Virus record (IMG/VR): IMGVR_UViG_3300025030_000013
Span: 1-64,000 of that record
DNA: 64,000 nt
Source of the DNA: a virus
Direction: 5' to 3' (one strand)
This document shows, piece after piece, positions 1,918 to 51,749 of this stretch. A program made the position numbers and the translations under genes. How positions within the stretch are numbered: position 1 is the first letter of the stretch; each line of letters opens with the position of its first letter. Below the pieces are notes generated by a model. That model searched no databases. It worked only from the letters and a program-made list of their open reading frames with translations, and had not been told where the DNA came from.

Positions 1918-3792
1918 GTGAAGGACAAGCCGATTGACATTATAGATGACGATACTGACGTTAAAGAATTAATCCAAACCGAAGAAGAAAAGAAACTAGC
2001 AATGCGAGTGCAAGAACTATTTACAGCCTCTTATAATACTAAAAGCCAACTTAGAAAGCCTGATATATGGAAGAAGTGCGATGATTACAAGCACAACCGG
2101 CAGAACCCACCAAAGAGCGATATAGATCCCGGAAGCGTGACGAATATCATTCATTCCATCATAGAGGCGATGATTGCCGACTTGGTGGATAAGCCTATTG
2201 CTGTAGAAGCGAAAGGTCATGAACCATCAGACCATTTATTAGCCGAGCAATCAAAGCATATGCTTGAATTTGTGCTAAACCGAAACAGGATTAAGTCAAA
2301 GCTCAATCAGTCTGAACATGATCGGTTAGAGTTGGGAACAACAATATTGAAGGTATATTTCGACCACGACGCTTTAGGTGGCAGAGGTCTTCCGATCGTT
2401 GAACCAATTTCACCTGCAAACTTCTTTCCAGACCCAAAGGTACAGAGTTCTCACCTACTCCAAGAAGGCGAGTTCATGATTCACGCTGTACCGAGGCCGC
2501 TATCATGGTACAGGAAACAATGGCCGGAGCGCGGTAAATATGTTCAGCGTGAAATATCTGTGCCGTATAACCCTGAGATATTCGAGGATCAAGGGTCTGA
2601 TGAAACCGAGTTAACGACTAGCCAAAAGGCGTTACTCCTTGAATGCTACATGAAGGATAATGATGGTTCCACTTACTGTCTACATGTGGCAAATCACATT
2701 CTGCTCGAAGATTCCAGAAAAGTTCTGAACGGTAAAAAGGTCAACAGACGTGATCAATTCCCCTTCGTCTTGATCCCCTGCTACATCCAGAGAGGGCAGA
2801 TATGGGGTCAATCAGACATTGAAATGCTTATTCCAACTCAGGACATCATAAATGAGATGGACGATAACATAAGAATTACAGCACGCCTTATGGGTAATCC
2901 TCAAGTTGTTGTAGGGATGGGAGCCGGGCGTTCATTTGATTACCGCAAGTGGACAAACATGCCGGGTCTTAGAATACCAATGAGGGACATTAACGCTTGG
3001 CGCATTGTAGAACCATCTGGTGTTTCAGCAGACATTATCAATAGGCGTGAAAAGGGATTTCAGGAAGCGAACCTTATATCGGGGAGAACAGACTTAACTA
3101 CTGAGCAAACCTATGGAGCAGTTAGGGCGGCAAGTGCTATTATAGCCGTTCAGCAGCAAGGTCAAAAAGGAGTTAACCATAAGGCCGAGATGTTCAAGAC
3201 TGGCTGGGGAGAGGTTCTTGAACTCATTATGGATGAGATAATAACTAATTGGGATACCGAAATGTGGTTTAGGATTGAGGGGGAGAAACCGGACTTTAGA
3301 TTCTATGACCCTTCAAGATTGAGTGTGGTTCCTCAAATGATTCCAGATCAAAGACCTGTTTTGGATGAGAATAACGAACCTGTCATTGGGCTTGATGGTC
3401 CCGAAATGGAACACTTCATCAAACCATTAGAGGACGAAGAAGGAAACCAAATGACAAGAGAGGTACAATTAGACCTCTCTTTATCTATGGGTAATGGCTT
3501 GCCAAGCGATAAGGCGTTTATGTATCAGACGGTCGTGGAGTTATCTAAGGCAATAATTGATGGTCGGTCGGTTATTACATGGAAAGAATTCCGCGAATAC
3601 TTACGTTCCGAAGTCGGATTACCGTTAGATGATGACGTAAACATTCCCCAACCTCAATTATCAGGTATGCCTGGGCAACCTACGATGCCGGGACAAATAC
3701 CAGGACAAATGCCTATTCCGAACACTGATAATATGAATGGCCAAGAAGGGCAGATGAATAATATTCTTTCTTCATTGCGAGGTGATGGTTAA
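1918..3792 (+). CDS. Portal protein
   Basis: 624 residues from a GTG start after AAGGTGAG. Length, position after terL and content fit a podovirus-type portal: an acidic N-terminus, a central DIEMLIPTQDIINEMDDNIR helix region, and a Pro/Gly/Met-rich C-terminal tail (repeated PGQ). Portals form the dodecameric ring through which DNA is packaged and ejected and to which terminase and tail dock. The stop overlaps the next ATG (TAATG). The PGLRIPMR segment recurs in the small frame at 963. Confidence 0.88.
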   Translation: MKDKPIDIIDDDTDVKELIQTEEEKKLAMRVQELFTASYNTKSQLRKPDIWKKCDDYKHNRQNPPKSDIDPGSVTNIIHSIIEAMIADLVDKPIAVEAKGHEPSDHLLAEQSKHMLEFVLNRNRIKSKLNQSEHDRLELGTTILKVYFDHDALGGRGLPIVEPISPANFFPDPKVQSSHLLQEGEFMIHAVPRPLSWYRKQWPERGKYVQREISVPYNPEIFEDQGSDETELTTSQKALLLECYMKDNDGSTYCLHVANHILLEDSRKVLNGKKVNRRDQFPFVLIPCYIQRGQIWGQSDIEMLIPTQDIINEMDDNIRITARLMGNPQVVVGMGAGRSFDYRKWTNMPGLRIPMRDINAWRIVEPSGVSADIINRREKGFQEANLISGRTDLTTEQTYGAVRAASAIIAVQQQGQKGVNHKAEMFKTGWGEVLELIMDEIITNWDTEMWFRIEGEKPDFRFYDPSRLSVVPQMIPDQRPVLDENNEPVIGLDGPEMEHFIKPLEDEEGNQMTREVQLDLSLSMGNGLPSDKAFMYQTVVELSKAIIDGRSVITWKEFREYLRSEVGLPLDDDVNIPQPQLSGMPGQPTMPGQIPGQMPIPNTDNMNGQEGQMNNILSSLRGDG

Positions 3793-24585: not shown

Positions 24586-25908
24586 ATGCTAGATTTACTA
24601 ATGCCAGAAATTTCAGCAACTGCAGGTAATTACAGCGATGGCGTGGTAATAGGGAATATCGTGCGTTCTAATATTGTTGGAGCGTTTACTAGTTCCGTAA
24701 TCCTTGATACAATATACGCATTGAGAAAAGAAAGTGTAGTTAGCGGAGAAAATGTAGGGGATCAGTTCTTGGATGTATCAGCTAATGCTATAGGTAATGT
24801 AGTGAATGGATTTAGCGCACTATCCGGTTTAGAATTATGGTTATCATCTATAAAAGATATTTGCGAAATATATGTACAAATAGATACTCCAGGCGTGTAC
24901 ACGGGAACTATGTCTGTCCAAGAAAGCATAGATGGAGAAACCTTGGTTGACGTTGGAAATTTAGTCGATGGTTCAGATGGTTTAAGAGCATCAGCAGGTA
25001 TATACAAAATAAGTTTTGACGATAACGATAACCGAAAGGCAATATCTCCGTTTTTCGGAGCGACAAAAAGGAAGTATATTGTCATAAGTAGGAGTTTGAC
25101 AAGTTCCCCCCAAACCCCACTTTTAAGAAGATTATGGTTAGCTTGTTCTGATAATTCAAAGGAGTATTTAGATTTTACGGATGCTGAAAACCAAGATCTT
25201 GCAGATCCTATAGATCAATCTTTTGTAGATTTAACCGTAATACCGAATATAGACGCTGACACAAACTTAGGTTTTTCCGGATTAACTATGGGATTTGATA
25301 GAACTGATTATCGAGCAGTAGATAATACGTCCATTGTGCCTATTCATGAGTATTATGCTAGTGATGAGACGTGGAAACCTCTGCAAAATGTTGTTGATCC
25401 ATCTAACTTTCATACAATTGGACCAACTAATTACGGTGATCCTACTGTACTTACTAAAGTAAGGTGGACTGTCCCGACAGATTGGACAGCTAAGCCCCTT
25501 ACGTTCGCACCTTCAATAACACCTGTTACAGCATATTGGTACAGGAACCGAATGGTCTCGATAGGTACGTACACCTTATATGCTACTCCGTTATGGCGAG
25601 CTAGGTCGTTGTCATTTGGGAGTAGTCTGGCTTATGGTATATTTCACGCGAAAGCAAGTAGTTATTCATATGTAACGTTTGAAATTGGCATAGCGAGTAC
25701 CGCGGACATGATTGTAGCCTTCGTTAATGCAATCACTGGTCAGTCAAGAAGCGTTACGATACCTCAAAACACATCTTCAAGTGGCTCAGTTACCGGGGGA
25801 AGGTTGGATTTTGTAACTCCTTTGGAAATTGGGGCAGGTCAACATTTACTAATTTCTCATATTTCAGGATCTGGTAATTTGCAGGATGTTCAATTACGAA
25901 TAGGTTAG
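24586..25908 (+). CDS. Tail fibre / receptor-binding protein, copy 1
   Basis: 440 residues starting MLDLLMPEISATAGNYSDG, beta-rich throughout. It is a paralogue of the next gene (shared start, ESIDGETLVDVGNLVD, PFFGATKRKY, LLISHISGSGN). Paired fibres with a shared scaffold and variable surface are typical of receptor-binding modules. AAGGAG precedes the ATG. Confidence 0.68.
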   Translation: MLDLLMPEISATAGNYSDGVVIGNIVRSNIVGAFTSSVILDTIYALRKESVVSGENVGDQFLDVSANAIGNVVNGFSALSGLELWLSSIKDICEIYVQIDTPGVYTGTMSVQESIDGETLVDVGNLVDGSDGLRASAGIYKISFDDNDNRKAISPFFGATKRKYIVISRSLTSSPQTPLLRRLWLACSDNSKEYLDFTDAENQDLADPIDQSFVDLTVIPNIDADTNLGFSGLTMGFDRTDYRAVDNTSIVPIHEYYASDETWKPLQNVVDPSNFHTIGPTNYGDPTVLTKVRWTVPTDWTAKPLTFAPSITPVTAYWYRNRMVSIGTYTLYATPLWRARSLSFGSSLAYGIFHAKASSYSYVTFEIGIASTADMIVAFVNAITGQSRSVTIPQNTSSSGSVTGGRLDFVTPLEIGAGQHLLISHISGSGNLQDVQLRIG

Positions 25909-25969
25909 TTTTCATAAGTCTCCCGAAATCCTTCGAGATTCAAAGATTGCATTAAGGGAGGTAATAATA

Positions 25970-27313
25970 TTGCTTGATCTACGCTTGCCCGAAATATCGG
26001 CAACATCTGGGAGTATGAGTGACGGAGTGTCTATTGGAAATATCAATAGAACTCAGCCGGTAGCGGCATATAACAACTTACTATTGTCAACGGAAATATT
26101 TGCTTTAAGAAGAGATACAGGAACAAGCAACATCTTTACAGATTTGTCGTCAGAAGCCATAAGTGAGGTTGATAATTCATTCCTTCCGTGGGGTGATGAT
26201 GCTACATTCTCATCAGGAGATGAGATATGGATTGCCGACGGAGAAAAGAATATCAATGAGATTTATGTACAAATTACAACTCCTGGGGTATGGACAGGAA
26301 CCGGATTAAGTGTCTTAGAGAGTATAGATGGAGATACGTTAGTTTCTGTGGGAAACTTAGTAGATACATCCAACGGGATGAGAAATGCAGCAGGGGTATA
26401 CAAGATATCATTTGATATTAATTTAGCTAATAGAAAGTCCATCGCACCATATTTTGGTGCAACAAAACGAAAGTATGTAGTCTTGAGGCCTAACGGTCTT
26501 ACATCTAAAACAACTTCTCCTAAATTAAGGAGGATATGGACCACTAGCAGCGAAGGTGCTAATGAATGGACAGACTACACAAGCATGGTTACTGCAGACT
26601 TAACGAATTCTGATTTTGGTTCCATAGCTAATAATACAATTTTCCCCGTCATTGGTAGTGAGTCAAGAATTGGTTACTCAGGATTAACAATAGGGTTGTA
26701 TGATGCTATATACAGGGGTATACCAAATAACTACAGTGTAGTTAGGGAATATTTAGCGTCTGACGACACATGGAAACCTCTACCTGACTATGTTGATCCG
26801 GGTAATAACTTCACAACAGTGTCAACTACGTATAGCGCGACTCCTACCTATTTATACAAGAAGTGGTCAATTCCCTCGGATTGGGCAGCCAAAACCCTTA
26901 CGCTTCCTCCGTCTACAACCCCAATTACAGCATATTGGGTGAGAAGGAGAATAACAGCCGTTTCGACCTATGGTCCCATACCTATATACTTGTATCGTAG
27001 GAGGTCGTTGTCTTTTGGTGCAGGGTTAGCTACGGGGATATACTTTAAGAATGCCGTATCGTTTAGTTATGCCACATTTACCATAGGTGTTCCATCGTCC
27101 ACAAGTATGGTACTGGCCTTTACTAATGCCATCACTGGAGTTAGTAGAAGCATCACAATTCCTCAAGGTACAACTGATTCAGGAGCCTTGACTGGAGGGC
27201 GACTAGACTTCGCTTCACCGCTCACAATTGGACCCGGTGAGCATCTTTTGATCAGCCATATTTCAGGAACCGGAAATATACAAGACATGGAGCTCCATTT
27301 AGATCCTCAGTAA
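25970..27313 (+). CDS. Tail fibre / receptor-binding protein, copy 2
   Basis: 447 residues from TTG 25970 after GGGAGG. It aligns end to end with the preceding protein (MLDLRLPEISATSGSMSDG at the start, HLLISHISGTGNIQDMEL at the end), with most divergence in the middle. Likely a duplication followed by divergence, giving alternative or hetero-oligomeric fibres. Confidence 0.68.
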   Translation: MLDLRLPEISATSGSMSDGVSIGNINRTQPVAAYNNLLLSTEIFALRRDTGTSNIFTDLSSEAISEVDNSFLPWGDDATFSSGDEIWIADGEKNINEIYVQITTPGVWTGTGLSVLESIDGDTLVSVGNLVDTSNGMRNAAGVYKISFDINLANRKSIAPYFGATKRKYVVLRPNGLTSKTTSPKLRRIWTTSSEGANEWTDYTSMVTADLTNSDFGSIANNTIFPVIGSESRIGYSGLTIGLYDAIYRGIPNNYSVVREYLASDDTWKPLPDYVDPGNNFTTVSTTYSATPTYLYKKWSIPSDWAAKTLTLPPSTTPITAYWVRRRITAVSTYGPIPIYLYRRRSLSFGAGLATGIYFKNAVSFSYATFTIGVPSSTSMVLAFTNAITGVSRSITIPQGTTDSGALTGGRLDFASPLTIGPGEHLLISHISGTGNIQDMELHLDPQ

Positions 27314-27431
27314 TAAATATTGGAAGAAGTCGCGGGGGCAAGGCACAAAGCCAAGCTATTACATTATGGGGTAACTAATTAAATATCTTTACGCAGGTCT
27401 CGAACCTCTGAATTAAAAGGGGGTTTTTTCT

Positions 27432-29906
27432 TTGAAGAAAGGTTTTTTGACCGTAGCATACCCGCAAAATGCAACAGAACAGGCAGCGGTACCCGTAGGA
27501 CAGTTCGCTATACTTCCTGGTGAAAGTGAAGTCAAACAGAAATCAGCCACAGGCGAGATATCATCGGTCGGAGGTGGAGGAGTTGGAGGTAAAGCACAAC
27601 TCACTACTGCTGGCAGTAATGCCTTAACCTATTCCTTGCACAACGGAAAAGAAGTTCACTGTGAGGCAGGGGTAACAGCCGTTACAATGGCATTGGCTGA
27701 TTTCCAAGTAAGTGGAGAGAATATCTTTGGTTCGTTTTATCTATTCAACTATACCGGTTCTCCATTGCCACTTAGTTTAACTGGTTTGTGGTTTGGAGGT
27801 ATCAGTGAGGATGGAGAATCAGCAAACGACTTATTCGGAGCAGGAACGTTAGTAACAATTCCTCATTCCATGAAAGCATTGGTTATATTCGATGCCGATA
27901 AGTATGTAAGGGCTTCAATTTTAGGTAGTGAAGTAACGCAAACCGAACTCAATTCAAAGCTAACTAATATTGTTTCTGCAACCGATAAAATATTAGGACG
28001 TTCCACAGCTGGAGCAGGAGCAATTGAGGAAATAACTTGCACCGCAGCAGGTAGAGACATACTTGATGATGCTGATGCAGCAGCACAAAGAACTACTCTA
28101 GGACTTGGAACATTGGCTACTTTATCAACGGTAGGTTCAACCAATATCACAGATGATGCTGTAACAAATGCAAAACTAGCTGATATGGCTGCAAATACCA
28201 TTAAAGTTAATGCAACAGCTAGTGCGGCTAATCCAACAGATGTTACTCTTGCTGCTAATCAATTCTTAGCAAGATCAAGTATAGGTAATGTCACAGCATT
28301 AACATTAACAGATACAGCCATTTCACTACTTGACGATGATAATACAACGGCAATGAGAACTACTTTGGGACTTGGTGCACTTGCGACCAAAAATACAGTC
28401 GTTTCAACTGATATGTTCGATGGGATCGCAATGAGAAGGAACGAACTTAAGCGCAGACTTCCTAGGTGGAGTTCAACTGTTCTTGCAGTCGATTGTAATG
28501 GAGATTTTACCGACTTATCAAACGCACCAACAACTCTTACAACTACAGGTACCGTTGCATTTGTAGCTGATACTAACGGAATTGGTACTCAAGTAGCAGA
28601 CTTTGCAGGTGCTAGTAATTCGGTAACAGAAACTGCAATAGATTTAAATGGTCATTCGTTTTCGTTAGCATGTTGGTACAAAAAAGCTGCAGTTGGGGAT
28701 TTCGGGTATATTATAGGGCAAACAGGTGCGGGAGTCACTAATAACACAATGCTGTTTGGGTATAATGGAGTGGCAGGAACTTTTAGTCTTGTATTTTGGG
28801 GGAATGACTTAAACTACACATCTGCACCGAACGACACGAATTGGCATCATGCAGTTGGAACTTACGACACGTTGACTAATATCCAGGCTTTGTATATTGA
28901 CGGTGTTTTAGTTTCAACGAGGACTTCCACATCAGACTTATTATCTAATAAAACTATATATATAGGTCGTTCGGAAAGTAATGGAGAATGGGGAGGACTT
29001 GTTCAACAAGCAGTTATTTGGGATAATACTGTCTTGACGTCTTCTGAAATTGCTTCACTCTATTCAAAGGGTGATTTAACATCATTTGGACAGTTAGCGA
29101 ATACAAGCAGTAGTGTAGAATCATTTTTGCTAAATACAGGTATTGCTAAATTATGGACTCCTAGCGACTTAACTCGTGCAATTGATATTGATTTCTCAAG
29201 CGCTCCACTTGGAACATTGACTACCATAACAAATACTGGATCGCTTGGTGGAAATGCAGCACAAGCAACAGGTTCAAGGCAACCAGTGATAATAACGGAT
29301 TTAAATGGAGTTAAATGTTGCTCGTTTGATGGAGTAGACGATTTTCTAGAGAGTAGTATTGCATGGCCGCTTGGTACTCACTACGCATTATTTGCAGTTT
29401 ATAGATACGTTGCAACTGGTCAAAATAAAATGATAATATCAGACGTTCACACACCAGATGGTAATATTAGTTATTGTATGGGTTTTGACAATGCGACCGG
29501 AGAACATACTTCAACCGCAAATTCCATTGGTGGCGCGCACTTCAATGGTTCTTGGAGAGCTGGGGCATCTACCGGATACACAGCAGGTAATTTCGGATTC
29601 CACTTTGCGCAGTATGACGGCGTAAACATTGCAAATAAATCAAATGGTGGGACTACTGTAAATACAGCCCAAGTATCAGACCCGGCAGGTGCACAAGCAA
29701 CACTCACAAGAATAGCAGCAGATTGGAACACATCTACAGTGGACTATGCAAATGTGCGCATATTTAGAATATTAGGATTTGTAGCAGGTGCTGGTCTTTC
29801 CTCCGATACTATAGAACGGCTAGAAGGTTGGGCAGCTTGGACTCACGGACAGCAATCATTACTTCCCGCAACGCACACATACAGGTATAAAAGGCCCCTA
29901 GCCTAG
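27432..29906 (+). CDS. Large tail fibre with LamG-like domain
   Basis: 824 residues from TTG 27432. An N-terminal anchor (AYPQNATEQAAVPVGQFAILPGE) is followed by fibre repeats with TTLGLGTLAT and TTLGLGALAT and TDAAV-like NAKLADMAA segments. Residues about 400-540 form a concanavalin/LamG-type lectin module (FSLACWYKK...WHHAVGTYD...LYIDGVLV...IYIGRS). A second lectin-like C-terminal domain ends with WAAWTHGQQSLLP. A host glycan-binding fibre is likely. Confidence 0.75.
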   Translation: MKKGFLTVAYPQNATEQAAVPVGQFAILPGESEVKQKSATGEISSVGGGGVGGKAQLTTAGSNALTYSLHNGKEVHCEAGVTAVTMALADFQVSGENIFGSFYLFNYTGSPLPLSLTGLWFGGISEDGESANDLFGAGTLVTIPHSMKALVIFDADKYVRASILGSEVTQTELNSKLTNIVSATDKILGRSTAGAGAIEEITCTAAGRDILDDADAAAQRTTLGLGTLATLSTVGSTNITDDAVTNAKLADMAANTIKVNATASAANPTDVTLAANQFLARSSIGNVTALTLTDTAISLLDDDNTTAMRTTLGLGALATKNTVVSTDMFDGIAMRRNELKRRLPRWSSTVLAVDCNGDFTDLSNAPTTLTTTGTVAFVADTNGIGTQVADFAGASNSVTETAIDLNGHSFSLACWYKKAAVGDFGYIIGQTGAGVTNNTMLFGYNGVAGTFSLVFWGNDLNYTSAPNDTNWHHAVGTYDTLTNIQALYIDGVLVSTRTSTSDLLSNKTIYIGRSESNGEWGGLVQQAVIWDNTVLTSSEIASLYSKGDLTSFGQLANTSSSVESFLLNTGIAKLWTPSDLTRAIDIDFSSAPLGTLTTITNTGSLGGNAAQATGSRQPVIITDLNGVKCCSFDGVDDFLESSIAWPLGTHYALFAVYRYVATGQNKMIISDVHTPDGNISYCMGFDNATGEHTSTANSIGGAHFNGSWRAGASTGYTAGNFGFHFAQYDGVNIANKSNGGTTVNTAQVSDPAGAQATLTRIAADWNTSTVDYANVRIFRILGFVAGAGLSSDTIERLEGWAAWTHGQQSLLPATHTYRYKRPLA

Positions 29907-29962
29907 TTAAATAAGGCTGTCATTCACTGGCAACCTATTCTCTCACAAAGGTGGTGGTGCAA

Positions 29963-30922
29963 GTGAGAAGCGGAACTCCAATTATTTTTTACCCACAGAA
30001 TACAACAGAACAAGTGGCAATTCCTACGGGGTCGTTGGCGTTACTATCTGGAGAAACCATAACAAAGGTGAAACTAAGCGATGGAACATTTATCCCTTTA
30101 GGTGGCATAACAGACATTACTGATTTTGGTAGAGACTTGATAGACCTTCCGAATATAACCGAATTAAAGATATTGTTAGGTACGGCTACAGCATGGCAAC
30201 CGACGTCATTGACTAGGCGAGTAGATGTTGACTTTACTAGCGCAAGCCTTGGCGCAATTTCTAGTATAGCTAATGCCGGATCACTTGGTGGAGACTTTGG
30301 TCAAACAACGTCCTCGAAACAGCCTACAGGAGTTGACTTTTTAACGTACAGAGCCGCATCATTTGACGGAGATGATAGCCTTTCTGGTTCAACAGCGTGG
30401 TTAGTCGGTGCAAATTATGCTTTTTTTATTGCGTTTTCTTATGATCCAGACCCTCCGGAGCAACAATATTTATACAGCGGACATCCCATAACTGTCAGGG
30501 CAGCTCATTCTGTTGGCTCTAGGAATACCACAGGTAATCTCGTAGGGCCTGCCCACAAGTCAAGCGATACATGGTATGCAGGTAATGGTAGCACGGCTAA
30601 TTACGGCAACATTGATTTTGTGTACTGTTCTTACGATGGATCGAACTTTCATACAAAATTCAACGGTAGCATTGATTCTATAGTATCTAATACAGCCGTT
30701 CCGGACACAGGATATAATACCGTTGGTGCTATTGGAGCGGCCAACATAGGCAGTGAATATGCCTATAATCTTAAAGGTAAAATTTTCCGAGTGATAGGAT
30801 TTAGCTCTCATCAATCCGACACAGACATTGCGAAAATGGAGGGTTGGGCTGCATGGAACTTTGGTAGAACTAGTATGTTACCTGCTAACCATCCCTACAA
30901 AAATGTTAGACCAATAGTATAA
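29963..30922 (+). CDS. Short tail fibre, shorter paralogue of the preceding gene
   Basis: 319 residues from GTG 29963 (AAAGGTGG upstream; an in-frame GTG at 29951 overlaps that site). N-terminus FYPQNTTEQVAIPTGSLALLSGE and C-terminus KMEGWAAWNFGRTSMLPANHPY match the two ends of the 824-residue protein, but the fibre repeats and first LamG module are missing. It therefore looks like the same anchor and tip joined without the shaft. Confidence 0.7.
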   Translation: MRSGTPIIFYPQNTTEQVAIPTGSLALLSGETITKVKLSDGTFIPLGGITDITDFGRDLIDLPNITELKILLGTATAWQPTSLTRRVDVDFTSASLGAISSIANAGSLGGDFGQTTSSKQPTGVDFLTYRAASFDGDDSLSGSTAWLVGANYAFFIAFSYDPDPPEQQYLYSGHPITVRAAHSVGSRNTTGNLVGPAHKSSDTWYAGNGSTANYGNIDFVYCSYDGSNFHTKFNGSIDSIVSNTAVPDTGYNTVGAIGAANIGSEYAYNLKGKIFRVIGFSSHQSDTDIAKMEGWAAWNFGRTSMLPANHPYKNVRPIV

Positions 30923-34370: not shown

Positions 34371-34607
34371 TCACATCACGCCTGCCGTAAATTCGAAGAA
34401 CTTCTTGAGCAACTGCCACGCTACGGCTACTACCGAAAGGATAGCGACAATTATAGTTGCTGTTCTTAACATTCCTGCGACCTGCCCCTTATTTACTGCT
34501 CCTAATATTAACTCCCCTAACCAAGATCCCACACCAAGCATAACTAAGATGATAATTACGAATCCCGGCTTACCTGGTCCGAATACCTCCCTTGCTGCTT
34601 CTGCCAT
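34371..34607 (-). CDS. Small two-TM protein of plasmid transfer type
   Basis: 78 residues: an amphipathic N-terminus and two TM helices (FVIIILVMLGVGSWLGELIL; ATIIVAILSVVAVAWQLL). Size and layout resemble VirB2/TrbC-like or small conjugation-associated membrane proteins, but sequence is not diagnostic. Overlaps the upstream gene, indicating one operon. Confidence 0.6.
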   Translation of the reverse strand: MAEAAREVFGPGKPGFVIIILVMLGVGSWLGELILGAVNKGQVAGMLRTATIIVAILSVVAVAWQLLKKFFEFTAGVM

Positions 34608-35256
34608 TTAAGCATTCCTCCTTTATTTGATCTAACGAATAAACACGAAATTCAAGATTATGGACATTCTCTTTATCAATTTTCTCCTTGATAGACTTAA
34701 CTCTTCCGGTAGTCACCACAATAATAGCAGGGAATCGCTTGGATAAAGGAACCCACCATTGATTCATATAGGCCCCTGAACCAAAAAGATCGTTGTATTT
34801 TTTAACCTTCTTGGAAAAATCATTTCCGCTTTTACCAATATCCATTTCGACGAAATAGAAATACATAGCATCTTGCCATAGATTATTTATCCCCACAAAA
34901 GCATCCGGTCGAATAGTCTTGTAATCCTTAATCTCCCTGTCAAAACAATGAAGTTTTTCCATATTGGAGAGAGTTGTGTTTATCCAAGTGAAGACCCATG
35001 ACACGCCTAGAACATGCTCTAATTGACCCGGCCTACGATCTAGGTAGTAATGATATGGTTCACCTAGTCTTAGTCTGTCACGATTGATTTTAGCGTGTGG
35101 TGGAGTGGACAAGATAGTTAGTCGACGCTGAACTATACGTAGGCAATTACCCTTGAATAAGAGAAGGTGAACCATATCTGTGGTTAAGACTGTTTGGGAT
35201 TCTAGCATGTCGATTAGCTCCCTATCGCGGCGACAACATTTTGCGTGGTTGTTCAA
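34570..35256 (-). CDS. Replication-relaxation family protein
   Basis: 228 residues from TTG 35256. ATG 35210 has a better ribosome site but would lose RDRELIDML. The N-terminal winged helix (RDRELIDMLESQTVLTTDMVHLLLFKGN...VQRRLTIL), then HYYLDRRPGQLEH and a RPDAFVGI...YFYFVEMDIGKS segment, are the hallmarks of the plasmid 'replication-relaxation' family, typically encoded next to FtsK-type ATPases in Gram-positive plasmids. The C-terminal half looks like a nuclease-type fold. Confidence 0.75.
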   Translation of the reverse strand: MNNHAKCCRRDRELIDMLESQTVLTTDMVHLLLFKGNCLRIVQRRLTILSTPPHAKINRDRLRLGEPYHYYLDRRPGQLEHVLGVSWVFTWINTTLSNMEKLHCFDREIKDYKTIRPDAFVGINNLWQDAMYFYFVEMDIGKSGNDFSKKVKKYNDLFGSGAYMNQWWVPLSKRFPAIIVVTTGRVKSIKEKIDKENVHNLEFRVYSLDQIKEECLNGRSSKGGIRTR

Positions 35257-36355
35257 TCTTTATCAACTCGCTTCGTGCAATCATTGGTCTATTGTTATAG
35301 AGTTTTATCGCTTCGTCTGGTTCCAGTAATAATGTTTGGACTTCTAATTTATCAAGACCACATTTATAGATAGCCCTGCCTTTTATTGCAGGGAGGTGTG
35401 CCGCCTCATCGCTGTCTAAGATCATCCTGGAGTTAATTATATCGGCCACAACAAAACATATCCTTCCGAGAAACATTGCCTTTAGATCACCAAACTTTTC
35501 AAACACTTTGGAGGATGGTCTCTGCGTGGCTGCAATTACATGTACTCCAACAAATCTCCCCATCCTTAGAAGCCTCCATAAGCTGTCTTGTGCATCTTCT
35601 GGCAAGTCTGCCCACTCATCTATAATTAGGACTATATAGGGCATCTGGTGGCCTTTCTCATGGTATTTTTTTATCTTAGCGCATGATGCCGACTTTAGAA
35701 TCTTCTTTCGCTTATCCATCTCTTTATTCAGTGACTCGAACAAACCCTTAACCTGACTCATTTCATCTACTACTAAAGCCATTTCATTAAGATAGTCAAA
35801 CTCAGTCGATTTAGGGTCAATGATAATCAAGTTGGTGTCCGGTCTGTAAAGGAGGATTGAGTTTGCGATAACATGGAGTTGATTCGATTTTCCATAGTTC
35901 GTTTCCCCGGCTGTTAGTAGGTGCGGATACTCCACAAGGTCCCTGACTATTAATCCTTTGGCGGATATTCCTATCGGGATAGGTAATTCCATCTTGGAGT
36001 ATTTAGTGTGATCGAAAAGAGAATATGGGTATTTCTTTTTAAGTTCTTCGGTTATTACCTCCATCGTAATTGCCTTGCCATGCTTTTCTATGTGGACGGA
36101 ACCACCTGTAGCGTCTGAAAATAGATTAGTTTTCTTCTGGAAATCAGTAAACCCGGTACCAGGAGGAAGATAAATAGTAAACGTCCACACTTCTCCTTTT
36201 TTTGACTTGTGGATAATCAAGGGTTTAAGCTCATCCTTGGAGTATAAGGCGTTAATGCAATCCTGAACCGCAGCGTGAGCATCATTCCCTTTTCGATGCA
36301 ACCAAAGTGATTTAAGTTGGTCCCTTACTTCCTCTATTGCGTTTTGTTGCTTCAT
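35222..36355 (-). CDS. FtsK/HerA-type DNA translocase ATPase
   Basis: 377 residues. Walker A-like AGETNYGKSNQLH (about residue 152), Walker B YIVLIIDEWADL (about 235), and QRPSSKVFEKFGDLKAMFLGRICFVV match plasmid FtsK/SpoIIIE or TcpA-type coupling ATPases. The usual GxxGSGKS lysine-serine pair is kept as YGKS. The protein would move DNA or couple it to a channel. Neighbours suggest segregation or transfer of the extrachromosomal form. Confidence 0.82.
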   Translation of the reverse strand: MKQQNAIEEVRDQLKSLWLHRKGNDAHAAVQDCINALYSKDELKPLIIHKSKKGEVWTFTIYLPPGTGFTDFQKKTNLFSDATGGSVHIEKHGKAITMEVITEELKKKYPYSLFDHTKYSKMELPIPIGISAKGLIVRDLVEYPHLLTAGETNYGKSNQLHVIANSILLYRPDTNLIIIDPKSTEFDYLNEMALVVDEMSQVKGLFESLNKEMDKRKKILKSASCAKIKKYHEKGHQMPYIVLIIDEWADLPEDAQDSLWRLLRMGRFVGVHVIAATQRPSSKVFEKFGDLKAMFLGRICFVVADIINSRMILDSDEAAHLPAIKGRAIYKCGLDKLEVQTLLLEPDEAIKLYNNRPMIARSELIKIEQPRKMLSPR

Positions 36356-36585: not shown

Positions 36586-36613
36586 AAAAAAGAACCAGAC
36601 ATATTATGTCTGG
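36586..36613 (-). terminator. Terminator after the MerR-like gene (minus strand)
   Basis: CCAGACA-TATTA-TGTCTGG followed on the minus strand by TTCTTTTTT. It separates the rep/MerR-like unit from the ATPase operon. Confidence 0.75.
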
Positions 36614-37155
36614 CTGAATATTCTCCTCCACCACGGATTATTGCGTTGTTGTTGTATCACTTTAATATCATTGAGTCGTTGTATTACCTCATTATCCCTG
36701 TTCTCTACGTCCTTATATCCATCTTCGACCTTCTTGTGGAGTCCTGTAAACCCTTCATTAAACTCTGCCCTCATATCCTCAATTTCCTCTTGTAGTTGAA
36801 TGATAATTCGGTTCTGCTTAGTAATTTCTTCGAGGAGGACGTGGCGGATAGTATGCGCTAAATCTTCTTGTTGCGTTGCCTCTGTGCTGTTGTCCGGTTC
36901 TTGCGTAACAATATCGGTTGTTACGTTAATTCCATACATTTTGTCTAATAGCTCTACTATTTGATCGTGGTCTAATTTCCTGACATATGATGCCTTAATA
37001 ACATTCAATATCTCCACGGTGGATGATTTCTCAAACTTAGTCGTTTTTCCTTCTCCCTGGGTTCGAAAATATTGGAGGTAAACATCCTTGTAATATCGAC
37101 AGGTACTTATGTTTATGTCAGTAAGTTCGGAGCATTGTTTAAGTGTTAGATACAC
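36604..37155 (-). CDS. MerR-like HTH plus coiled-coil plasmid protein
   Basis: 183 residues from GTG 37155. N-terminal MerR-type HTH (YLTLKQCSELTDINISTCRYYKDVY, then FEKSSTVEILNVIKASY), a linker, a coiled coil (ITKQNRIIIQLQEEIEDMRAEFNEGFTGLHKKVEDG) and a C-terminal WWRRIF tip. The layout matches plasmid-borne RacA-like/DUF3967-type proteins. The DnaA box 37159-37167 lies just upstream of its start. A role in segregation or origin binding is plausible. Confidence 0.7.
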   Translation of the reverse strand: MYLTLKQCSELTDINISTCRYYKDVYLQYFRTQGEGKTTKFEKSSTVEILNVIKASYVRKLDHDQIVELLDKMYGINVTTDIVTQEPDNSTEATQQEDLAHTIRHVLLEEITKQNRIIIQLQEEIEDMRAEFNEGFTGLHKKVEDGYKDVENRDNEVIQRLNDIKVIQQQRNNPWWRRIFSQT

Positions 37156-37308: not shown

Positions 37309-37698
37309 CTATTGTCTTTCCTTCATCATCATTTCGTAGAGGGTATCAGGGCTTATTAATCCTTCTTTTACGGATCGTTCAAGGTGTTCAGTTACCTCCG
37401 AACAAAGGAAATACATTACCTTCTCATCTCCCGGTATCCCGGCCTTTACTATCCATATGTAACCCCGTTCTTCTAGCCACATCATGCCAGCTGTAACGCT
37501 TGGCCTTGATAACTTAGTTAATTTCAGGAGTTGTGGCATGGCTAGGTAGTCCCCAACCTTTTCCCACCCCCAGCATTTCCTTATAAGGGTAAAATAGCAT
37601 TTAAGAGCAGCTAAGTTTGTTATCTCTGGCATAAGTTGGTCGAACACTATGTTTGGCACTTCTGTATAGTTTTTTTGCGGGCGCGGCAATTTGAACAC
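37309..37698 (-). CDS. Rep-like replication initiator, winged-helix domain
   Basis: 129 residues from GTG 37698. YTEVPNIVFDQLMPEITNLAALKCYFTLIRKCWGWEK...AMPQLLKLTKLSRPSVTAGMMWLEERGYI is the winged-helix found at the N-terminus of phage O-type and plasmid RepA_N-type initiators. The protein is short for an initiator (usually more than 200 residues), so a second component may be needed. Its ribosome site GGAG is built into the terminator at 37702-37740, its stop abuts the DnaA box 37300-37308, and iterons follow. Confidence 0.7.
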   Translation of the reverse strand: MFKLPRPQKNYTEVPNIVFDQLMPEITNLAALKCYFTLIRKCWGWEKVGDYLAMPQLLKLTKLSRPSVTAGMMWLEERGYIWIVKAGIPGDEKVMYFLCSEVTEHLERSVKEGLISPDTLYEMMMKERQ

Positions 37699-37701
37699 AA
37701 T

Positions 37702-37740
37702 AAAAAACTCCTATCAAACCAAATTAAAGGATGACAGGAG
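37702..37740 (-). terminator. Attenuator terminator overlapping rep ribosome site
   Basis: Minus strand CTCCTGTCA / TGATAGGAG (nine pairs, one G-U) followed by TTTTTT and, nine bases after GGAG, the GTG start of rep. The same hairpin can stop transcription and block translation. Confidence 0.75.
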
Positions 37741-37759
37741 CAAAAATGTGTTTTATACT
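37731..37759 (+). promoter_or_regulatory. Promoter of antisense RNA
   Basis: ATGACA, exactly 17 bp, TATACT on the plus strand, opposite to rep. Transcription would begin at about 37766 inside the rep leader. Confidence 0.7.
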
Positions 37760-37765
37760 AAATTA

Positions 37766-37837
37766 AAGCACATATAGATTCCTGTCTAGGGCCTCTTCGA
37801 ACATCACTTTGGCGGTGGGTAGTTCGGAGAGGTTTTT
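37766..37837 (+). ncRNA. Antisense (countertranscript) RNA to the rep leader
   Basis: From the promoter at 37731-37759 the plus-strand RNA would run about 70 nt and end at CCTCTTCGAAC / GTTCGGAGAGG (37792-37802/37822-37832) followed by TTTTT, an intrinsic terminator. The 19-nt loop contains TTTGGCGG, fitting the YUNR (U-turn) rule of plasmid antisense RNAs. It is fully complementary to the hairpin between segments A and B of the leader. Size and position match copy-control RNAs of pT181/pIP501-type systems. Confidence 0.7.
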
Positions 37838-37878
37838 CCTTTTCTCCCTAATTCGACAGGTTCAATCTATTATCCTAT

Positions 37879-37992
37879 CTAGCTGAAAAAATAAGCAACA
37901 AACTCATAGAGATACCGAGGGTCGAGTATAGTTAGTTCATCATCCACTACTATCCACTTAAAGAACCCTGCTAAATCTCGTTCAATAATCAT
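37879..37992 (-). CDS. 37-residue protein upstream of the rep leader
   Basis: MIIERDLAGFFKWIVVDDELTILDPRYLYEFVAYFFS with GGAAG before the ATG. Encoded on the rep strand just ahead of the leader, in the place of copy-control peptides in other plasmids. Its sequence is hydrophobic and acidic and matches no family I know. The proposed rep -35 lies just inside its 3' end. Confidence 0.5.
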   Translation of the reverse strand: MIIERDLAGFFKWIVVDDELTILDPRYLYEFVAYFFS

Positions 37993-38105
37993 TTGAAAAA
38001 CTTCCTTTCTTGTCTTATGATACAATACATTTTCCCTGCTTTCAGTTGGTCTTCATAACCATAATTACGACTATATATTTCCTTATATTTAAAAATGCGC
38101 AAAGA

Positions 38106-38151: not shown

Positions 38152-38532
38152 CTATCTTGACTTCATTTTCTTGATTGACTCTAAGAGTTCGCGCAGGAAG
38201 ATGGGGTCTATTTGTTCTATCGCTAAATCACGCGCCAGTACAGCATATGCTAGGCTCTCAGGCTTACTAAAGAATTCTACTATGTCAGATGGGGGGTCGT
38301 ATCCCGTTATCCTAGTAAGTGATTCCAAGGAAACAGCAGCATCGTCCATAAAAAAATAGGTATTGGCATTAAGCGCCTTGGCTATTCTCTCTAATGATTT
38401 CATTGCGGGGCGCTTTTTTTCATTCTCAATATCACTTAAATAAGGGGTAGACAATCCGCATTTTTTAGATAAATCAGAGAGTGTCATTTGTCTCAATTCT
38501 CTAACGTATCTAAACTTTTCTCCGTAATTCAA
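38152..38532 (-). CDS. CI-like phage repressor (XRE HTH)
   Basis: 126 residues from TTG 38532, with GGAGGTG upstream. N-terminal HTH_3/XRE domain (RYVRELRQMTLSDLSKKCGLSTPYLSDIENEKKRPAMKSLERIAKAL, about 8-55) and a C-terminal oligomerisation-like part without the Ser/Lys peptidase dyad of LexA-type repressors. It is divergent from a second XRE gene, forming a lysogeny switch. Without a self-cleavage domain, induction may use the antirepressor at 39005. Confidence 0.82.
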   Translation of the reverse strand: MNYGEKFRYVRELRQMTLSDLSKKCGLSTPYLSDIENEKKRPAMKSLERIAKALNANTYFFMDDAAVSLESLTRITGYDPPSDIVEFFSKPESLAYAVLARDLAIEQIDPIFLRELLESIKKMKSR

Positions 38533-40061: not shown

Positions 40062-40790
40062 ATGCAAATTGGAGATTTTGTTAAAGGAAAGCCAAGCAAC
40101 GGATATGGCATCACGAACGAGGATATGACGAGGGGTGTTGTGGTTGAGATATTATCCGGTGATCGTATCAAGGTTAAAGTTCTGGATCATGTAGATGGCG
40201 GAACTGGTACGTATGAGGTTAGTGCTGTCGGATTCGAAGTAATAGGACACCAAAAGAAGTTTGACAGGCCAGAAGTCTTAGAACTACTTAAAAACGGATG
40301 CAAGAAAGCAATATTGGATTACGACCTTCGCAGTGCAGACCTTAGCGATGCAGACCTTAGCAGTGCAGACCTTAGCAGTGCAGACCTTCGCGATGCAGAC
40401 CTTCGCGGTGCAAACCTTCGCGGTGCAAACCTTCGCGGTGCAAACCTTCGCGGTGCAAACCTTCGCGGTGCAAACCTTCGCGGTGCAAACCTTCGCGGTG
40501 CAAACCTTCGCGATGCAGACCTTAGCAGTGCAAACCTTCGCGGTGCAGACCTTAGCGGTGCAGACCTTGATTTTTCTTGCCTACCGCTAAGATGTGGAGG
40601 ACTTCGTTGGAAAATTGATAAACGTCTGGCTTGTCAATTGGCATACCACCTCTGCTCAATGCAGTGTGACGATGAGGAATATTTGAAGATGCGGGATTCT
40701 GTTCTCGGTTTTGCGAACCAATTTCACAGGTTTGATGAGTGCGGAAGACTAAATCCTCAAGAGAAAGAAAATAATCAAATTGAAATCTAA
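40062..40790 (+). CDS. Pentapeptide-repeat protein with KOW/SH3-like N-terminus
   Basis: 242 residues. N-terminal SH3-like barrel ([39 protein letters not shown]), then 16 pentapeptide units (A[D/N]L[R/S]x, residues about 88-170) that should form a right-handed quadrilateral beta-helix, then a helical cap ([31 protein letters not shown]) known from phage pentapeptide proteins. Some such helices mimic DNA and bind gyrase; whether this one does is unknown. The repeat DNA is nearly uniform. Confidence 0.85.
40322..40569 (+). repeat. Tandem 15-bp repeats (about 16.5 copies)
   Basis: The unit is GCANACCTTCGCGGT, six consecutive NLRGA copies being identical. Copy number of such an array can change by slippage without frameshift. 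Confidence 0.9.
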
Positions 40791-50125: not shown

Positions 50126-50899
50126 GTGGCAAAAAGAAGGGCTATTTCGCAAAAGTTGAGGTTCGAAATATTTAAACGTGACAGTTTTAAATGTCAATAT
50201 TGTGGAGCATCGGCACCAGAAGTAATACTCCATGTAGATCATATGAAACCAGTTGTTAAAAACGGAACAAATGATATGACCAATTTAATCACTTCTTGTG
50301 AAGGTTGTAATTTTGGTAAGGGCAAGAGAACTTTGAATGACACAACTGCCATCGAAAAACAAAAGGCTCAATTAGACGAACTTAATGAAAGACGTTCCCA
50401 ACTCGAAATGATGATGAAATGGCGCGAGGGACTTTCAAGTATTGAGGAAACTAAATTCAAATATGCACTTGAAAAATGGTCGTATCTTGCCCATCCTTTT
50501 TCACCAACGGAAAGTGGAGAAAAGATATTAAAGATAATTATCAAGAAGTATCCACTGGAAACAGTTCTCGATGCAATAGAAACATCTACTGATCAATACT
50601 TGGAAAAAGATAAGGATGGAAAATTTACTGAAAAATCCGTCGGTAAGGCATTTGATTATATTGAAAAAATATGCGCAAACAAGAAGAGGGAACAGGAAAA
50701 ACCTTATTTAAAAGATTTGTATTACGTACGCGGTATTTTAAAAAACAGGCTTAGTTCTCTGAATATGTGGAAGACATTGGATTTACTTGAGGAAGCCTAT
50801 AGTCATGGGTTTGATTTGGAGGAACTAAAGAAATTGGCAAAAGAAGTTAGGAGTTGGACAGAATTTAGGAACGCTATTGAAGACTTTATTAGTGGGTGA
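50126..50899 (+). CDS. HNH endonuclease
   Basis: 257 residues from GTG 50126. Core HNH: FEIFKRDSFKCQYCGASAPEVILHVDHMKPVVKNGTNDMTNLITSCEGCNFGKGKR (about 12-70), then a long helical C-terminal part. Unlike the first two HNH genes, it has no promoter or terminator that I can see. It lies in front of the replisome organiser and could serve homing or recombination. A GGGGT/ACCCC hairpin precedes it. Confidence 0.85.
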   Translation: MAKRRAISQKLRFEIFKRDSFKCQYCGASAPEVILHVDHMKPVVKNGTNDMTNLITSCEGCNFGKGKRTLNDTTAIEKQKAQLDELNERRSQLEMMMKWREGLSSIEETKFKYALEKWSYLAHPFSPTESGEKILKIIIKKYPLETVLDAIETSTDQYLEKDKDGKFTEKSVGKAFDYIEKICANKKREQEKPYLKDLYYVRGILKNRLSSLNMWKTLDLLEEAYSHGFDLEELKKLAKEVRSWTEFRNAIEDFISG

Positions 50900-50903
50900 T
50901 GTA

Positions 50904-51749
50904 ATGGCCCGTTCGAGAAACATTAAGCCTGGTTTTTTCTTAAATGATGTTCTGTCCGAAATAGAACCACTAGGAAGATTGTTATTCGCCGGATTATGGA
51001 CGATAGCGGATAAGGCTGGAAGGTTAAGGGATAGTCCAAAGAAAATCAAAGCTTGTATTCTTCCTTATGATGATTGTGATGTAAATAATTTGCTAAATGA
51101 ATTGTGGAAAAGGAAATTTATAACTCGTTATGTCGTAGATAACGAGGGATATATCGCTGTGATTAACTGGAAAAAACACCAAAACCCACATATGAAAGAA
51201 GTGGAAAGCGAGATACCTGAACCTGAAGAGGAAGCTTTTTATTCGGAACAAGAACTAAACGAGCATCATACTAGCACCATGCAAGAACAAGTTTTGCACG
51301 AAACTAGCCCTGCTGATTCCCTTAACCTGATTCCCTTAACCCTTAACCTGATTCCTGATTCCAGTACGGGTGCAAGCACCGTACAAAAAAACCCAAAGAA
51401 ATCTAAAGTGGCTGTTATTAAAAAAACATTTGGTGAAAAAGTTCACTTGTCGGAAGCTGAGTATGAAAAGTTAGTCAAGGATAACGGTAAATATGACACG
51501 GATGAAATGATTGCCATCCTTGACAATTGGTATTGCTCTAAGGGAAAGCCTCCAAACAAATCTGATTATCATTGCATGGTCGGAAAAGGATGGGTATTAA
51601 GCAGACTTAACGAAGATCGACAAAAGCAATCCAGTAAACCAAAAACAGGATGGATTAACACCAGAACACCAAACCAATCCATTCAGGACAACATAACGGC
51701 CCAATGGTTATCCATGCACGAGGAGGCAGAAAAGAATGGACAAGCCTGA
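50904..51749 (+). CDS. Replisome organiser / replication initiation protein
   Basis: 281 residues from ATG 50904. The N-terminal winged helix (NIKPGFFLNDVLSEIEPLGRLLFAGLWTIADKAGRLRDSPKKIKA) is shared with phage replisome organiser proteins. A Lys-rich linker and a C-terminal helical part follow. It would melt the phage origin and recruit a helicase loader. A candidate origin with 21-bp repeats lies within the gene (51321-51384). It overlaps the helicase loader gene. Confidence 0.72.
   Translation: MARSRNIKPGFFLNDVLSEIEPLGRLLFAGLWTIADKAGRLRDSPKKIKACILPYDDCDVNNLLNELWKRKFITRYVVDNEGYIAVINWKKHQNPHMKEVESEIPEPEEEAFYSEQELNEHHTSTMQEQVLHETSPADSLNLIPLTLNLIPDSSTGASTVQKNPKKSKVAVIKKTFGEKVHLSEAEYEKLVKDNGKYDTDEMIAILDNWYCSKGKPPNKSDYHCMVGKGWVLSRLNEDRQKQSSKPKTGWINTRTPNQSIQDNITAQWLSMHEEAEKNGQA
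51321..51384. other. Candidate lytic origin within replisome organiser gene
   Basis: CTTAACCTGATTCC occurs at 51321-51334 and 51342-51355 (21-bp period), followed by an inverted repeat GTACGGGTGC...GCACCGTAC at 51364-51384. Origins within initiator genes are known from lambda O and SPP1 gene 38. Confidence 0.5.

Follow-up and report, generated by a model that had tools for sequence, protein, structure and literature searches.

How a prophage that lives as a plasmid might keep count of its own copies is the question raised by a leader RNA in the IMG/VR virus record IMGVR_UViG_3300025030_000013. Plasmids are the textbook case of copy control by countertranscript-driven attenuation, and little is known about how plasmid-like prophages of the present kind regulate their copy number. 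The window analyzed here, 64.0 kb out of the 65.8-kb record, carries on its minus strand a gene for a replication initiator of the winged helix-turn-helix (wHTH) type (rep; Phage_rep_O-like, 129 amino acids [aa], positions 37309 to 37698, GTG start codon at 37698), which was assigned by matches to phrog_678 ("replication initiation O-like"; E = 1e-10) and Phage_rep_O (E = 9e-5). A first-pass annotation had interpreted the leader of this gene as an attenuator driven by an antisense RNA, with the pT181/pIP501 logic known from plasmids. Conservation, co-variation, and strand-specific mismatches in 17 leaders bear out the core of this interpretation at the level of sequence, and we consider it probable (roughly 80%) that the locus is an antisense-RNA-controlled transcription attenuator limiting the initiator that the prophage would use for replication in plasmid form.

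Anatomy and conservation of the rep leader

The rep strand of the window leader folds far beyond chance (z = -4.9; 0 of 200 shuffles). Read toward rep, the first of the segments is A (AACCTGTCGAATTA; positions 37849 to 37862, minus strand, as for all segments below), which can pair with either B or D. It is followed by the A-rich segment E (37833 to 37848), which templates the U-tail of the predicted antisense RNA and would pair with F in the read-through form, and by a central hairpin, termed H (37792 to 37832), which is the putative sensing hairpin of the leader on the minus strand and the hairpin and terminator of the antisense RNA on the plus strand. Segment B (GACAGG; 37781 to 37786) is the predicted antiterminator, or pre-emptor, and segment C (37732 to 37740) is the 5′ arm of the terminator. 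The terminator loop contains segment F (37719 to 37731), complementary to E, and segment D (37716-37708) is the 3′ arm, followed by a U-run (37707-37702). The C:D terminator lies where it had been placed by the first-pass annotation, over the rep ribosome-binding site (GGAG, 37711-37708, inside arm D), and its pairing is kept in relatives. Two pairings, E:F (37848-37833 with the C-D loop) and the alternative A:D, come in addition to the four segments of that annotation. The minimum-free-energy structure of the window leader contains both C:D and A:B, and for most leaders the read-through form of lowest energy also has A:D paired. Rfam scans at gathering and at permissive thresholds returned no relevant match, including to the pT181/pIP501 families and to riboswitch and leader models.

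A protein search of IMG/VR yielded ten loci, eight of which kept the leader, while it was absent in two. The set was enlarged by a DNA scan with segment A, a stricter scan, and a search with the MerR-like protein encoded next to rep, resulting in 17 distinct leaders, all from viral contigs of uncultured phages (16 complete, one cut by a contig end; individual loci carry L numbers). The order of parts was identical in all 17, with 66 to 88% identity for the divergent leaders. This comparison demonstrates the anatomy of the leader, as far as sequence can, together with its conservation.

In every complete leader the ribosome-binding site lies within arm D, so the C:D fold would block translation too. 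The same antisense RNA and leader could consequently have a mainly translational effect, with C:D sequestering the rep GGAG and causing little termination, which is how pSK41 works (PMC5703833). However, in the complete leaders arm D runs straight into a stretch of 5 to 7 U (L083, with 4 U, is the exception), as an intrinsic terminator needs, and the C:D stems have energies of -11 to -18 kcal/mol. We regard a predominantly translational effect as rather unlikely.

The predicted antisense RNA and its signature in hairpin H

The arms of hairpin H were compared directly with each other, as the MAFFT columns were unusable (in the L007 group, the alignment offsets the hairpin by one column). The 12 distinct duplexes contained 119 Watson-Crick pairs, 12 C.A mismatches, no G.U pair, and 1 other mismatch. 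This C.A bias has a p value of 0.0005 if the changes are taken as independent; counted by position, there were at least 6 separate events versus 0. A C.A mismatch on the rep strand is a G.U pair on the antisense strand, and therefore hairpin H has been kept as a hairpin of the antisense strand and is slightly broken in the leader RNA. It always folds stronger on the antisense strand. The bias is reversed in C:D, with 10 G.U pairs versus 2 C.A mismatches, both of the latter from the leader that is cut by the contig end. The mismatches in H also fit a finding on pT181 attenuators, which require interior loops in their sense hairpin (PMC4878617).

On the opposite strand, the 17-bp-spaced promoter of the first-pass annotation was found again (ATGACA-17-TATACT; 37731 to 37759, plus strand). 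It is one of the highest-ranking sites in its region and belongs to the top 0.7% of the 100-nt windows of this genome. The best antisense promoter occupies this same position in each of the 17 leaders, and in 14 of them it ranks within the top 1% of windows. Its -10 element is conserved as TATACT or TATAAT while the flanks vary. Promoter scan and folding predict an antisense RNA of approximately 77 nt (37766 to 37842, plus strand; -26.4 kcal/mol, z = -2.9) with one main hairpin, a UUUGGCG loop of the YUNR type, and a U-rich tail. The U-tailed terminator on this strand also agreed with the earlier prediction, consisting of the hairpin at 37792-37832 and the tail TTTTTCCTTTTC at 37833-37844; the proposed RNA of about 70 nt is retained as a prediction from promoter and terminator, with a length nearer 71 to 89 nt. 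UUUR is kept in the antisense loop of every leader (UUUGGCG, UUUAGCAG, and UUUGGUCG), and the inner stem is CAC:GUG in one loop type and AUC:GAU in the other. YUNR U-turn motifs have been noted for antisense systems (Heidrich and Brantl 2003, as cited in PMC4981023). Three signs in the sequence, namely, promoter position, mismatch asymmetry of the hairpin, and loop motif, indicate that the antisense RNA has been selected for.

Inverted repeats and a promoter-like site could in principle arise by chance in A+T-rich DNA, and over a 2.5-kb region the consensus scan indeed found promoters at close to the shuffled rate (11 versus 8.2). The z score of the leader fold speaks against such an origin, and the conservation in 17 leaders together with the strand asymmetry refutes it; we give it practically no weight.

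Proposed switching between read-through and termination

We compared the pairing of each leader's own segment partners with that of partners taken from other leaders, using permutation p values that ignore shared ancestry. Cognate partners paired better for hairpin H (p < 0.001), B:C (p = 0.0006), E:F (p = 0.005; 0.002 to 0.017 in divergent subsets), and C:D (p = 0.02), and apart from C:D, which depended on L083, the results held in divergent subsets. B:C cells were 100% paired in 11 leaders, and C:D cells were paired at 98.9%, versus 39 to 48% when slid. In L083, segments C, B, D, and E are all altered, yet the pairings persist (AACCCC:GGGGUU and AUACUAG:CUAGUAU). The antiterminator B:C is thus present and kept, and covariation in homologs, a check named by the first-pass annotation, is seen for C:D and for the antitermination pairs B:C and E:F. 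Its A:B anti-antiterminator fared differently. A:B is part of the minimum-energy fold in the window, but A is nearly invariant, cognate A:B partners paired no better than noncognate ones (p = 1.0; p = 0.12 when extended by the flanks), and the pairing is weak in L071, L083, and L152. These comparisons point to a read-through form built from B:C and E:F, in which A perhaps pairs with D.

In ensemble folding just before the synthesis of D, B:C was dominant in 14 of the 17 leaders. Blocking the stretch covered by the antisense RNA led to formation of C:D in all 16 complete leaders in silico, restoring the terminator. These foldings are consistent with the following mechanism. A leftward mRNA, starting at the repressor gene or the small open reading frame (ORF) upstream and continuing into rep, would run through the leader. 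In the free leader, B:C and E:F would pair, possibly along with A:D, blocking the C:D terminator so that rep is transcribed. A constitutive opposite-strand RNA of approximately 75 nt, whose amount would track genome copy number, would bind the central hairpin loop first and cover E, the hairpin, and B. C could then pair with D, and transcription would end before rep, with the ribosome-binding site buried. We infer from the sequences that both RNAs are made, that their binding causes termination, that copy number is controlled in this way, and that the prophage is extrachromosomal.

Segment A is identical in 15 of the 17 leaders and far more constant than its pairing partners require; a protein site, a DNA site, or several partners are candidate reasons. 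Near matches to A, considered as possible copies of a repeated operator, were more frequent than expected (13 versus 5.6) and scattered. Reading A as a mini-ORF (TTG AAC CTG TCG AAT TAG) was rejected: four leaders (L007, L039, L055, and L133) lack the start codon, which leaves the invariance unexplained by coding. Because A and C are alike, A:D is inseparable from C:D by covariation. L152 (approximately 2400 to 3300) carries an inserted HNH-like gene that separates the small ORF from the leader; its segment A is degraded (GTGTGTCGAAAT), and the remaining leader is intact. The steadiness of A compared with its partners would suit an attenuator that depends on a protein or ligand bound at A, the opposite-strand promoter being incidental. 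No Rfam riboswitch or leader model matched, however, hairpin H varies as an antisense-strand hairpin would, and the antisense -10 element is kept while its flanks change, and we consider such an attenuator highly improbable. A protein may act on A alongside the antisense RNA.

Genome context and a probable plasmid-like prophage

The leader lies in a leftward operon in the order XRE repressor, 37-aa ORF, leader, wHTH initiator, MerR-like coiled-coil protein, small protein, FtsK, Replic_Relax, and M23 peptidase. The XRE-family repressor is the first gene (38155 to 38532, minus strand; HTH_3, E = 9e-12; synteny in approximately 20 loci) and was found upstream of the leader in every relative whose contig extends far enough; it may be a CI-like phage immunity repressor or a Cop-like protein. 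A weak candidate promoter of the rep transcript from a consensus scan (CTGAAA-17-TATCAT; 38017 to 38045, minus strand) has TAT(C/T)AT counterparts in several relatives, and if transcription begins there, the leader is approximately 310 nt long. The small ORF (37879 to 37992, minus strand) is 78 to 89% identical in most relatives, encodes approximately 70 aa with a hydrophobic C terminus in the L007/L008 lineage, and had no family match. Downstream of rep, also on the minus strand, are the conserved MerR-like DNA-binding or coiled-coil protein (36604 to 37155; weak MerR match), an FtsK/SpoIIIE-like ATPase (35222 to 36355; PF01580, E = 7e-23), and a Replic_Relax protein (34570 to 35256; PF13814, E = 5e-8).

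To the right of the repressor region, rightward genes encode a Cro-like XRE protein, a BRO antirepressor, recombination proteins, and a second initiator-like protein (50877 to 51749, plus strand; phrog_16167 replication initiation protein, E = 1e-48). The rightward operon is probably lytic. As this second initiator lies there and the controlled one lies in the repressor operon, the controlled gene is probably the initiator of a plasmid-like prophage and not the lytic initiator. Two further features of the plus strand are a pentapeptide-repeat protein early in the rightward operon (40062-40790; PF00805, E = 3e-30) and a late region (24586-30922) with four large proteins (323 to 824 aa) that had no PHROGs match at an E value of 1e-5.

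Virion genes (terminase and portal) were found, and the window carries the plasmid-type replication genes for an initiator and Replic_Relax. ParA is encoded in two related records only, in L132 directly after the controlled initiator, where it replaces the MerR-like gene. No tyrosine or serine recombinase (PF00589/PF00239) was detected in the window record and 18 related records, which are fragments; the metagenome contigs are classed as linear. Bacillus plasmid prophages carry replication initiator, Replic_Relax, and ParA/RHH genes (PMC8026635). Together with the leader, this gene content suggests that the viruses persist inside host cells as plasmids under copy control.

The leader precedes four initiator types within one otherwise conserved operon order, as typed by scanning one representative of each: O-like (window), DnaD-like/phrog_6493 (L039, L055, and L134), HTH_36/phrog_428 (L044, L071, L145, and L152), and HTH_36/phrog_7882 (L083, L131, and L132). 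The four types may share a remote origin, since all are divergent wHTH proteins whose weak profile matches overlap. The two HTH_36 types (L044, L071, and L083) have a common C-terminal motif, KYEKFYL, and are otherwise different; the motif is possibly a contact for a common partner. Both loop types of the leader occur with more than one initiator type, indicating that leader and initiator have been reshuffled. The existence of at least two loop types, and the position of the locus in the repressor operon beside divergent regulators and a BRO antirepressor, would also suit an antisense RNA whose main task is phage immunity or incompatibility, with rep shut off when a relative superinfects, and not copy-number homeostasis. 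Incompatibility is a consequence of copy control anyway, though, and the shuffling of leader types among initiator types is neutral either way; we find a main role in immunity doubtful.

Several observations weigh against copy control by antisense attenuation. Besides the shared ancestry ignored by the permutation tests, C:D reached only p = 0.09 when L083 was left out, and column-wise counts in the close group gave mostly one-sided wobble changes. In the window, L044, and L131, the combination of A:B and C:D rivals or beats B:C even without antisense RNA; the window leader, being balanced between A:B and B:C, may leak toward termination. L071, L134, and L083 have weak antisense promoters, and L083 also has a poor U-tail. 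The rep genes of L009 and L010 (66 to 68% identity) lack the leader. A missing integrase is not proof of a plasmid state in fragmentary records. Relatives are confined to a few metagenomes: the genome_contigs collection gave no relative by protein and four pattern matches in unrelated organisms, judged from their titles to be chance.

In the phages collection, the DNA search gave no homolog, and the protein search gave only distant O proteins of Pasteurella and Acinetobacter phages, of which the one checked was without the module. No plasmid relative of the window rep was found. A Brevibacillus laterosporus plasmid (NZ_CP136164.1; L161) encodes a distant relative of one initiator type followed by ParA; the leader of this gene (2230-2480) seems comparable by eye, with one C.A in the hairpin, an antisense loop containing UUGG, and, upstream of rep, a terminator-like repeat that the automatic terminator scan did not list.

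Relation to known antisense systems

Phage small RNAs that act by pairing, some of them via premature termination, include P4 CI RNA, P1/P7 c4 RNA, and lambda OOP, and their targets are immunity, antirepressor, or cII genes. They are not known to control an initiator gene through an overlapping countertranscript and an intrinsic terminator, as is proposed for the present locus. The extrachromosomal prophages of mycobacteriophages likewise use a noncoding RNA in plasmid replication; however, that RNA appears to start replication without RepA, and there is no attenuation (PMC7157519). Plasmid prophages of Bacillus cereus sensu lato share the replication initiator, Replic_Relax, and partition genes, but the word "antisense" does not occur in their description (PMC8026635). 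No antisense attenuator in a phage-plasmid was found in the literature, the nearest case being PMC7157519; as most subscription papers were outside the search, this is weak evidence.

Among plasmids, the pT181 family of Staphylococcus is alike in having an RNAI of similar size (87 nt), a sensing hairpin beside the pre-emptor, and a terminator that directly precedes rep and contains the ribosome-binding site (PMC5703833, PMC4878617). In contrast to the rolling-circle Rep_trans proteins of pT181, the phage initiators are wHTH proteins (O-like, HTH_36, or DnaD-like), and the phage leader has the extra E:F pairing (and possibly A:D), lies in a phage repressor operon, and matches no Rfam model. The Inc18 plasmids pIP501, pAMbeta1, and pSM19035, with RNAIII and CopR, resemble the phage locus in the XRE-type repressor gene upstream, the long leader (329 nt, versus approximately 310 nt here), the antisense promoter within the leader, and the terminator before rep (PMC4981023, PMC5703833). 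Their RNAIII, however, is 136 nt long and acts via two loop pairs, and RepR is a PriCT_1 protein, whereas the phage initiator is not of the RepR/RepE type and the phage XRE protein is perhaps an immunity repressor. Given the different initiators and the lack of any Rfam match, we do not claim membership in the pT181 or Inc18 family. The hallmarks of the mechanistic class are nevertheless found in the sequence: an antisense promoter in the rep leader that reads away from rep and has its own terminator, an intrinsic terminator just before rep that is mutually exclusive with an upstream pre-emptor, and, in silico only, formation of the terminator in 16 of 16 complete leaders when the antisense RNA covers the pre-emptor. 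Judged on these features, the proposed mechanism belongs to a class known from plasmids, and the phage system would be a variant thereof (PMC5703833, PMC4981023, PMC4878617).

The contrast between C.A and G.U mismatches is a simple sequence-only means of telling which strand of a hairpin is under selection. Beyond the single locus, we tentatively propose, with less than even confidence, that the antisense attenuator is a portable cassette that has spread through a phage-plasmid family with its design unchanged before at least four initiator types, that its loop types define copy-control and incompatibility groups among co-occurring phages, and that its closed read-through form (A:D, E:F, and B:C) is undescribed for plasmid attenuators. 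If the antisense attenuation itself is true, these phages use a plasmid solution in which one constant regulator is combined with exchangeable initiators, and from the loop types one could predict which of the phages are able to coexist in a cell.
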